DNA of 64,000 nucleotides, from the NCBI GenBank assembly GCA_903839535.1, contig CAIMCT010000068.1, forward strand, positions 1 to 64,000, written 5' to 3'. Within the stretch, counting starts at the first letter, position 1; each line of letters opens with the position of its first letter. The notes below the pieces were generated by a model, which saw nothing but the letters and a program-made list of their open reading frames with translations, was not told the DNA's origin and did not search any database. This document shows, in pieces, positions 21,788-38,513 of this stretch. Made by a program: the position numbers and the translations under genes. The stretch comes from an uncultured Desulfobacteraceae bacterium. GTDB lineage: Bacteria > Desulfobacterota > Desulfobacteria > Desulfobacterales > Desulfatirhabdiaceae.

Positions 21788-23874
21788 ATCGGGTTTTCCT
21801 CTTCCAATACCGCCTTATGGCTTAAACGAATCTTACCATCCCTGGATATCTCCAGGACTTTTACCCTGAGCGTATCGCCTTCCTTCACAACATCCGTGAC
21901 CTTTGTCACCCTTCGGGTGGAAAGCTGAGAAATGTGAACCAGACCATCTGTCCCAGGAGCAATCTGAACAAAAGCACCAAAATCCATGACCTTGACAACC
22001 GTTCCCTCATAAATTCGCCCGATCTCCGGCTCCATTACAATGCCTTGAATGAGCTTCATGGCGGCATCACCATCGACCTTTGAAATCGCCGCAATCTTCA
22101 CCAAACCAGTATCATCAATCTCAACACGGGTGTTGGTTTCGCTTTGAATCGAGCGAATCATTTTCCCGCCGGGGCCGATGATATCCCGTATCTTGTCCGG
22201 ATTGATTTTTATCGTCATGATGGCGGGGGCATACTGGGAGATTTCTTCTCGTGGTTTGTCAAGCGATGCCAGCATCTTGCCCAGAATATGGAGCCTGCCG
22301 GTTCGAGCCTGTTCCAAAGCTTTTCCCAGGATTTCCTTTGGAAGCTCGTGAATCTTGATGTCCATCTGAAGGGCGGTAATGCCTTCACTGGTGCCGGCAA
22401 CCTTAAAATCCATATCCCCTGTATGATCTTCATCCCCAAGGATATCCGATAAAATGATCACGGTTTCCCCGTCTTTGACCAGCCCCATTGCGATTCCGGC
22501 GACAGGAGCCTTGATGGGAATGCCGCCGTCCATCATGGCCAGAGTTCCGGCGCAAACCGTACCCATGGAAGATGATCCATTGGACTCCAGAACTTCCGAA
22601 ACAATTCGGATGGTATAGTCAAAATCGGCTTTTGCAGGCAGCACTTTTTCAAGCGCTCGCGTCGAAAGACCGCCGTGGCCAATGTCGCGGCGGCTGGGGC
22701 CCGAAAGTCTTTTTACCTCTCCCACTGAATATGGCGGAAAATTGTAATGAAGCATGAACGGTCTGGATTCTTCTCCGGTCAAGGTTTCCACCCGCTGCTC
22801 GTCCTGCCCGGAGCCAAGGGTCAACACGCCGAGCACCTGGGTTTCACCGCGGGTGAACAGCGCACTGCCGTGGGGCCTGGGAAGAATGCCGATTTCACAT
22901 GTAATGGGGCGGATTTCATCGAATTTACGATTGTCGATACGGCGGCCTTCTTTTAAAATCAGATTCCGGCTGATGACTTTCTGAATATCCTGAAAGATTG
23001 CCGCAACTTCCTCTTTCCGATTGACGAACTCTTCGCCAAGTGCTTTCAGCACCTCGGATTTTGCTGTACGAATCGCAGCATAGCGCTCAATTTTATCGGG
23101 AATGCCGAGCGCCAACTTTATGCGCTGAGAAGCAAGAGATTCGACTTTTTCAACCAAGGCGGCATCTTTTTCAGGCGCGGAAAACGCACGTTTGGGCTTT
23201 CCACAACTTTCCCGAAGTTTTTTCTGAATTTCAATGACCGGCTGCATGGCCTGGTGACCAAAGAAAATGGCCTCAAGCATATCCGCCTCGCTCACAATAT
23301 TTCCGCTGCCTTCCACCATGACAACGCCAGTGGCTGAACCGGCAACGATGATATTGATATCGCAGGCATCAAATTTTTGCAGGGGCGGGTTGATGACTAA
23401 TTGACCCTCAATGCGACCCACCCGGACACAGGCAATCGGTCCTTCAAATGGAATGTCGGACAGACCCAGCGCAGCAGATGCGCCAATCATGGCCAGAGTG
23501 TCCGGATCATTTTCCTGATCCATGGACAGCACCGTGGCGATAACTTGTGTTTCGAAATTGTACCCTTTGGGGAAGAGCGGCCGAATCGGCCTGTCTATCA
23601 GTCTGGCTGTCAGGGTTTCTTTTTCGCTGCCCCTTCCGATTTCACGGCGAAAATAATTTCCGGGAATACGGCCTGCGGCATAAATTTTTTCCATGTATTC
23701 AACCGTTAACGGCAGGAAATCCCCTTTGGCGCTTTCGTCGGACGAAACAACGGTCACCAGAACAATGGTTTCCCCGTATTGAACCACCACAGAGCCTGAT
23801 GCCTGTTTGGCGATTTTTCCGGTTTTAATGCTTAACGGTTTATCCCCGAGTGTTGCTTCGAGAACATATTCCAT
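21784..23874 (-). CDS. pnp: polyribonucleotide nucleotidyltransferase (PNPase)
   Basis: Phosphate-dependent 3'-5' exoribonuclease and RNA-degradation enzyme of 696 residues, full length. It has two RNase PH-like domains (first from about 10, second from about 315 with [14 protein letters not shown] and [15 protein letters not shown]), then a KH domain ([15 protein letters not shown]) and an S1 domain ([19 protein letters not shown]). The ATG follows AAGGAGG. It lies downstream of rpsO with two palindromic repeats in the gap of about 240 bases. In E. coli the rpsO-pnp junction is the site of RNase III processing and PNPase autoregulation, and the repeats may take that place here. Confidence 0.97.
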
Positions 23875-36574: not shown

Positions 36575-36925
36575 TCAGTTTGGCTGCACTGCAGTTCTGA
36601 CCAGACTGGAAAAACCGGTTGGGTCCGCTATCGCAAGTTCTGCAAGAACTTTCCTATCCAGAGCAATACCGGCCATTTTGAGTCCATGCATGAATTTACT
36701 GTAGGACAGATCATTCATCCGTGTACCCGCATTAATTCTGGCGATCCAGAGGCTGCGAAAATCCCGTTTCTTGACCTTGCGGTCCCTGTATGCATAGGCA
36801 AGCGCACGGTCAACGGTATCCGCAGCAGTCCGAAAGAGTTTGCTGTGTCCGCCGCGAAACCCCCTGGCCAGCTTTAATACTTTATTTCTCCGTCTCCTTG
36901 CCTTAAAGCCACGTTTTACTCTCAT
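36575..36925 (-). CDS. rplT: 50S ribosomal protein L20
   Basis: Early-assembly 23S rRNA-binding protein, 116 residues. Begins [20 protein letters not shown], with [17 protein letters not shown] and [26 protein letters not shown] precedes the ATG. L20 represses its own operon in E. coli by binding the mRNA. The hairpin between infC and rpmI (37330-37358) is a candidate site but has not been shown to be one. Confidence 0.97.
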
Positions 36926-37034
36926 ATCGTTATCTCCTTAATCCTGCATCATCTTGTAAAACCGCTGCACGCAAAAGCAGACAATGCATATATCCATCTA
37001 TCCGGGTAGGCTGAATCGGCAACACGTCCCGGGC

Positions 37035-37232
37035 TTACCCGTTCGGAAGTAATAATTTCAACTCTCTGACGTTGGATTTATCAATAATCTGACTTTTTCT
37101 CAAAGATCGTTTCCGCTTGGTGGTCTTTTTGGTCAAAATATGACTGCCATGAGATTTTGAGAAAACAAATTTCCCTGTACCCGTTTTTTTAAAGCGCTTA
37201 GCAGCGGAACGGTTGGTTTTGATTTTTGGCAT
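37035..37232 (-). CDS. rpmI: 50S ribosomal protein L35
   Basis: Small basic large-subunit protein, 65 residues. Begins [20 protein letters not shown] with the usual [23 protein letters not shown] lies upstream of the ATG. Standard position between infC and rplT. Confidence 0.97.
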
Positions 37233-37329
37233 GGTTTGATCTCCTAAAATTAAAGACTCAATGATGTTTTAAGACTCTAAGACTCATTGGCCCGTAAATC
37301 GTTCATCTCTGAAGGCGTATAAAACAGAA

Positions 37330-37358
37330 GGCGTGAGCCAAAATTATCTGCTCACGCC
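37330..37358 (-). promoter_or_regulatory. strong hairpin between infC and rpmI
   Basis: A perfect nine-base-pair stem GGCGTGAGC/GCTCACGCC with an 11-base loop lies in the infC-rpmI gap. On the minus strand it is followed by TTCTGTTTTATA, a weak T-tract. It may be an attenuator or an L20-responsive element; the sequence alone cannot decide. Confidence 0.5.
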
Positions 37359-37424
37359 TATACAACCTGCATAACAAAAAACTTTTTCCAGATATGACCG
37401 AGCCTTTTACGCCCGATTCGAAGG

Positions 37425-37958
37425 TTATTTGGGAGAGAGGATCATCACCATTGTTCGCCCTTCAAATTTGGCAGCCTGCTCGACTATAGCAATCTCCTGG
37501 GTTTCGACAACAACCTTTTCCAGCAATTCCTTGGCTGCCTGAGACAGCGTTATCTCACGGCCCCTGAAGACCACGGTTAACTTGACCTTGTCTTTTTTGT
37601 CAAGGAACTTTCGAATGTGATCAATCTTGGTTTGCAGGTCATGTTCGCTGGTCTTGGGGCGTATCTTGATTTCCTTGATCTGAAAAGTACTCTGCTTTTT
37701 TTTGGCCTCCTGCTTTTTTTTGGTTTGCTCGTAACGATAACGGCCATAGTCCATTATCTTGCAAACCGGAGGGGCTGCATTGGGTGAAATCTCAACAAGA
37801 TCAAGCCCGAAATCGTTAGCAACAGCCAACGCTTTGTATGTGGGGATTATTCCAATCTGGTTACCATCCGGATCAATCACCCTGACCTCTTTGGCGCGGA
37901 TATCCCGGTTGATATTGGTCTTATCGGTTTTGATGGGTCTTTTAGTTGTTGGGACTAT
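37425..37958 (-). CDS. infC: translation initiation factor IF-3
   Basis: Binds the 30S subunit, checks the start codon and initiator tRNA, and prevents subunit joining. 177 residues from the AUA start. The N-domain NINRDIRAKEVRVIDPDGNQ is complete only if translation begins upstream of the GTG at 37880. Between an in-frame TGA and that GTG there is no ATG, GTG or TTG. A perfect AGGAGG (37966-37971) is 7 bases from ATA at 37958. IF-3 rejects such codons, and E. coli infC uses AUU for autoregulation, so this is probably the same device with AUA. First gene before rpmI-rplT; thrS is not upstream. Confidence 0.93.
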   Translation of the reverse strand: MVPTTKRPIKTDKTNINRDIRAKEVRVIDPDGNQIGIIPTYKALAVANDFGLDLVEISPNAAPPVCKIMDYGRYRYEQTKKKQEAKKKQSTFQIKEIKIRPKTSEHDLQTKIDHIRKFLDKKDKVKLTVVFRGREITLSQAAKELLEKVVVETQEIAIVEQAAKFEGRTMVMILSPK

Positions 37959-38327
37959 GCCTGCACCTCCTCACGTTAACAAATTATAGCTTACACCTGC
38001 TGCTTCAGAATCAGAAATCAATTGATCCGAAACAGGTAAGCATCTGAAACTTGACGGTAACTGAGAATTTTGTTCCCAGTTCATCAAACAACTTTGAACA
38101 ATTATATCCTCTGATGATATATGACGACATGAAGAAATGCAAGCGAAAAATAATTGCCTGACATTGATTGCTGGTTTTGCTGCGATTTTACGGAAGCGAT
38201 TTCCAGGCCCAATGGTTCTGTTTGCCTTGACAGAACTGATTTTATTCCTATACTGAAAAATAATCAATCAACTTCTGCTTCTTGTTGCAAAGCACTAACT
38301 ACTTGTGGCAGGGTGGGAATATACATT
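37959..38327. other. divergent region between infC and ferredoxin gene
   Basis: No gene is supported. It holds the infC Shine-Dalgarno (37966-37971) and a stem just upstream (37989-38041, GCTTAC..CTG pairing with CAGGTAAGC). A perfect minus-strand TATAAT at 38101-38106 could be the infC -10 element, but no good -35 box is present. Confidence 0.45.
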
Positions 38328-38513
38328 ATGAAAAAACCTGTTATTGATTTAAGCGATTGTATTCTTTGCGGAGTATGCCAGGATGTGTGTCCGGAAGTTT
38401 TCAAGCTGAGCGCCGCCGGATACATTGAAGTGGTGGAAATGCTGGACTATCCACGGTTCTGTGTGGACGAAGCCATAAAGAATTGTCCGGCGGACTGTAT
38501 TGTTTGGGAGTGA
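38328..38513 (+). CDS. one-cluster [4Fe-4S] ferredoxin
   Basis: Electron carrier of 61 residues, typical for small monocluster ferredoxins. Cys11, Cys14, Cys17 (DCILCGVCQDVCP) and Cys53 (NCPADC) should bind the cluster. Cys21 and Cys45 match the positions that form a disulfide in related Desulfovibrio and Thermotoga ferredoxins. Earlier in-frame codons from 38154 are not convincing; the ATG at 38328 begins the conserved region. It directly precedes the HEAT-like gene with one base between stop and start, so the two are an operon. It could serve as redox partner for Nfn, but that is inference. Confidence 0.9.
   Translation: MKKPVIDLSDCILCGVCQDVCPEVFKLSAAGYIEVVEMLDYPRFCVDEAIKNCPADCIVWE

Follow-up and report, generated by a model that had tools for sequence, protein, structure and literature searches.

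Comparative sequence evidence for an AUA start codon of infC in Desulfobacterales and its possible role in IF-3 feedback

Introduction

Near-cognate start codons of infC, the gene of initiation factor IF-3, are textbook knowledge. The infC gene of an uncultured Desulfobacteraceae bacterium raises the question of which codon is used when no canonical start stands before the conserved N-domain, and of what such a start might serve. A first-pass annotation, made from the letters of the DNA alone, had proposed that this gene starts at AUA and that IF-3 controls its own synthesis through that codon. In this work, the proposal is examined in the window (the whole 64-kb stretch of DNA that was analysed) and in relatives of the bacterium.

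Materials and methods

The window was taken from contig CAIMCT010000068.1 of assembly GCA_903839535.1, a draft genome of 580 contigs. For the infC 5' ends from the order and the phylum, the stretch examined in the IF-3 frame began at the last in-frame stop and ran up to the conserved I-N of the N-domain. The 156 order-level rows are the distinct sequences that remained after removal of identical ones, and they include named-contig loci that were counted as close relatives by IF-3 identity. The automatic start call was replaced by judgement by eye in 18 ambiguous rows. Start-codon use beyond infC was judged from rpmI in the relatives and from the window. Outside the phylum, 14 infC loci were obtained from plasmid-collection records, of which some are mislabelled chromosomes and some are real extra copies, and their starts were assigned by eye from the Shine-Dalgarno (SD) sequence.

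Results

The infC coding region (37425..37958, minus strand) consists of 177 codons and a TAA stop. Its product is assigned to IF-3 by TIGR00168 (221.9 bits against a cut-off of 60, 4e-66) and by both Pfam domains, IF3_N and IF3_C, each at full length, and it aligns with E. coli IF3 (PDB 8jsg). When the frame is read from 37970, its residue 20 aligns with position 1 of IF3_N. The gene is present as a single copy, and no second IF-3 copy was found in the draft genome.

The minus strand reads TGA GGA GGT GCA GGC ATA, with GTTAACG directly before it and a continuation from GTC CCA ACA ACT through AAA AGA CCC, ATC AAA ACC and GAT AAG ACC to AAT ATC AAC CGG GAT. The in-frame TGA (37971..37973), five codons upstream of the ATA, rules out starts further upstream and overlaps the SD sequence. 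As the first-pass annotation had described, no in-frame ATG, GTG or TTG occurs between this TGA and the conserved N-domain, and a perfect AGGAGG (37966..37971, minus strand; AGGAGGTG, with 8 nt pairing to the 16S 3' end) precedes the ATA (37956..37958, minus strand) by a spacer of 7 bases (37965-37959). The window contains 1855 ATA triplets on its two strands, and only 2 of them combine an anti-SD match of 8 nt with a workable spacing, which argues that the pairing of SD and ATA at infC is more than chance. The second such triplet is located 5 bases from the ATG of an open reading frame at 23874.

Downstream of infC on the same strand are rpmI (L35; 37035..37232, TIGR00001) and then rplT (L20; 36575..36925, TIGR01032), both with ATG starts. 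Upstream is a divergent ferredoxin-like open reading frame, about 390 bases away, and thrS is absent there. In the genus alignment, conservation upstream of infC lies mainly in the stretch of SD and ATA and in a promoter-like block, which is the best conserved upstream block. This putative promoter (TTGCAT-17 bp-TATCAT; 38114..38142, minus strand) was not picked up by a strict sigma-70 scan; its position suggests a leader of about 150 nt. A structured leader was considered and rejected, since Rfam leaders, including the ribosomal protein L20 leader, gave no match at E<=1 in 36900-38400, the folding z was only -1.5 (slightly better than shuffled sequences) and the upstream conservation is so confined. 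An open stretch of 98 codons in the infC frame (37971-38267, minus strand) is closed by the TGA overlapping the SD sequence. It has no NCBIfam or Pfam match and aligns poorly in the genus, and as a coding frame it looks accidental.

When the infC 5' ends of relatives are aligned, a check that the first-pass annotation had named, the AUA start is borne out, as AGGAGG-ATA is kept throughout Desulfobacterales. The start codon in the 156 order-level rows is ATA in 149, with the window codon identical to these, ATC in four, ATT in one and ATG in one, and one row was left without a call. In 63/67 families of the order, ATA is found in every sampled genome, and the complete genome of the isolate Desulfonema magnum (L047) has ATA as well. 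Nearly all of the ATA rows are preceded by a GGAGG-type ribosome site; GGAGG is the peak among their upstream bases, and 91% of them carry G at +4. The SD match is 7-8 nt long in 135 order-level rows (most commonly 8), the spacing from SD to start is 7 in 91 rows and 6 in 33, with a mode of 7, and codon 2 is GCU in 87 rows. The stretch from the stop to the N-domain is free of ATG, GTG and TTG in 80/156 rows. All three sequence marks of the near-cognate infC class were found here, namely no canonical start, an AUH or CUG codon behind a strong SD sequence, and conservation of that codon as a start.

A relative with a clear ATG at another position and no AGGAGG-ATA had been named as a case that would speak against AUA. 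Only one relative with a clear AUG and without the ATA was found, a Desulfobacteraceae metagenome-assembled genome (L080, JAUXBD010000284.1) in which the infC ATG directly follows TAG and a CAGGAGT site is present. In this genome the near-cognate start has been lost naturally within the order. The row without a call (L300, G109:C346:5104-5554, family f67) has GCA at the position aligned with ATA and a good GGAGG upstream, which is either an assembly fault or a start shifted to an upstream TTG or ATG; its siblings L282, L292, L295 and L299 have ATA.

The start ATA was also compared with ordinary Ile codons. ATA accounts for 27% (439/1615) of the Ile codons inside infC bodies and for 149/154 at the start. 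The naive probability that the start ATA is a mere Ile codon is about 10^-84 with the rows taken as independent; relatedness makes the true evidence much weaker than this figure, yet it is overwhelming, and the pattern spans more than 60 families. The neighbouring rpmI in the same loci has an ATG start in 126/128 motif matches, so the use of AUA is specific to infC. A start of the window infC at AUA is strongly supported by these comparisons.

Among the 108 other sequences from the phylum, the start codon is ATA in 61, ATC in 26, ATT in 7, CTG in 3 and ATG in 4, with 7 left without a call. No canonical start is available in 64 of these 108. Three sequences of family f111 (L192, L197 and L212) were left without a call; two of the three have TAG-GGG-GTG-AAT-...-ATT, and an ordinary arrangement from SD to start is absent. 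The IF-3 tree (143 sequences, FastTree) gives at least 21 codon changes, of which only 2 are between AUG and near-cognate codons, and these counts are approximate as the tree is that of one short protein. The near-cognate codons are thus exchanged among themselves and AUG is reached in about 4/108, which indicates that the feature kept is a codon subject to discrimination by IF-3; in the order, AUA is nearly fixed. The near-cognate codon is not indispensable, since L080 and family f101 use AUG.

Outside the phylum, ATA was assigned to Aeromonas and Limosilactobacillus, and probably to Azospirillum p3. ATT was assigned to E. coli, Sinorhizobium, Anoxybacillus, Fusobacterium, Acetoanaerobium, Lachnospira, Subdoligranulum and Arthrobacter, ATC to Nonomuraea and ATG to Bacteroides. 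The E. coli DNA search gave no match at the DNA level. The public record of the Limosilactobacillus locus (L405) places the infC start at an ATG four codons past the SD and ATA, and this annotation is an example of gene callers missing AUA starts. The infC of a Paenibacillus plasmid (L397, NZ_CP106993.1) lacks rpmI-rplT, and its record starts at the ATG right after ATA (GGAGGGGTC-ATA-ATG); this extra infC copy may escape from IF-3 feedback.

Discussion

The reading that we favour, with a probability of roughly 0.87, is that infC would be translated from AUA at 37958 with the ordinary fMet-tRNA and that IF-3 would repress its own mRNA as in the AUU loop of E. coli. In this reading, the start site, the extent to which it is kept and the confinement to near-cognate codons are what sequence comparison shows. 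The full-strength SD sequence would hold the 30S subunit at AUA, where the ordinary fMet initiator tRNA would pair despite a mismatch at the third base of the codon. Such near-cognate complexes would be rejected by IF-3, so that free IF-3 would cut down its own production, and the block would be eased when IF-3 became scarce; this would be the E. coli infC loop with AUA replacing AUU. Autoregulation is well motivated because only near-cognate codons are kept in the phylum while the codon itself switches among AUA, AUC, AUU and CUG. The residues Y75, R99, R116, R129, R131 and R133 of E. coli IF3 are those that we take to be relevant to start-codon discrimination. In the alignment with PDB 8jsg, the window IF-3 is identical at the positions of Y75, R99, R131 and R133, and has K for R116 and V for R129.

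The AUA could instead be a true start that merely keeps expression low, or a historical leftover, with no IF-3 feedback in this lineage. This is consistent with S. aureus, in which AUA reporters are simply weak: for three other genes that start at AUU or AUA, reporter expression in minimal medium was about 10% of that with AUG (PMC13009471). However, the roughly 20 codon changes across the phylum nearly always end at a different codon of the kind discriminated against by IF-3, whereas a leftover would be expected to drift to AUG, GUG or UUG, and a weaker SD sequence would suffice for low expression, yet the SD is nearly maximal. We regard this explanation as unlikely.

A short IF-3 started at GTG (37878..37880, minus strand) or at another downstream codon is very improbable. 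This GTG is the first canonical start in frame, but starting there would cut 11 residues from the beginning of IF3_N, a segment that is conserved in the phylum; the first-pass annotation had rightly expected the loss of a conserved segment. The strong and correctly spaced SD sequence stands before the ATA instead. A special initiator tRNA whose anticodon, UAU or a modified CAU, properly matches AUA has even less in its favour and is hardly credible. It would fit the fixation of AUA, and UAU would be read at one exact match to GGGYTYATAACCC (C397:16880); this sole candidate was rejected as a chance match, since neither ARAGORN nor Rfam recognises a tRNA there, and the relatives alternate AUA with AUC, AUU and CUG while rpmI uses ATG. 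The ordinary initiator tRNA was not found in the draft genome with the pattern search used, and the one tRNA-Met(CAU) recovered looks like an elongator. An ATG misread as ATA in sequencing or assembly, as a draft of 580 contigs might suggest, is already refuted by conservation: 149 distinct sequences share the ATA, among them that of the complete Desulfonema magnum genome.

Beyond the AUA start and its feedback, we lean slightly towards the view that the infC start of Desulfobacterota is selected for membership in the set of codons that IF-3 discriminates against and not for one codon. AUA, AUC, AUU and CUG would then interchange with AUG almost never reached, and the near fixation of AUA in Desulfobacterales would possibly set the feedback gain together with the near-maximal SD sequence.

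No report of an AUA start of infC for Desulfobacterota was found in a literature search that had most subscription papers and preprints outside its scope, and a survey on arXiv of genes with non-AUG starts (Gvozdjak and Samanta 2020), cited in PMC9845219, may already include such cases. The kind is already known, as AUU, AUC and AUA starts of infC are on record; what is added here is a Desulfobacterales member and the distribution across the clade. Starts of the feedback type in infC would extend across the whole phylum, where the main codon is AUA in contrast to the textbook AUU. In such genomes, gene callers restricted to ATG, GTG and TTG are bound to overlook IF-3 or to give it too short or too long a reading frame. 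The natural set of AUA, AUC, AUU, CUG and AUG starts of infC in related bacteria also offers a ready test of start codon and SD sequence against the strength of the initiation-fidelity feedback.

Comparison with known systems

The infC of E. coli has an ATT start with autoregulation (PMC5472188), and the copy examined here reads GGAGGAATAAGGT-ATT. Both genes have a near-cognate start that departs from AUG at the third base, a GGAGG site and a single infC followed by rpmI-rplT. They differ in the codon (AUU there, AUA here) and in the absence of thrS directly upstream here, and the feedback is established there and proposed here. The first-pass annotation had spoken of the same feedback with a different codon, which holds in comparison with E. 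coli; however, the codon is not unique, as AUA is also used in S. aureus (PMC13009471) and, by sequence, in Aeromonas and Limosilactobacillus.

The AUA start of S. aureus infC was seen by Ribo-Ret ribosome profiling in 2026, and its authors infer autoregulation (PMC13009471). The gene and the codon are the same and the SD sequence is extended in both, whereas S. aureus belongs to a distant phylum and its start is experimental, compared with a start by comparison here. In Streptomyces, infC uses AUC and the GUC start of sigR is repressed by IF3 (PMC5472188). A near-cognate start is under IF3 control there, as is proposed here, but the codon is different and sigR is a target other than infC. In Listeria monocytogenes, the ATT start of infC is fixed among the 60,690 genomes analysed (PMC13068326). 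Both cases exhibit a non-canonical infC start fixed in one lineage, which is ATT in one species there and ATA across an order here.
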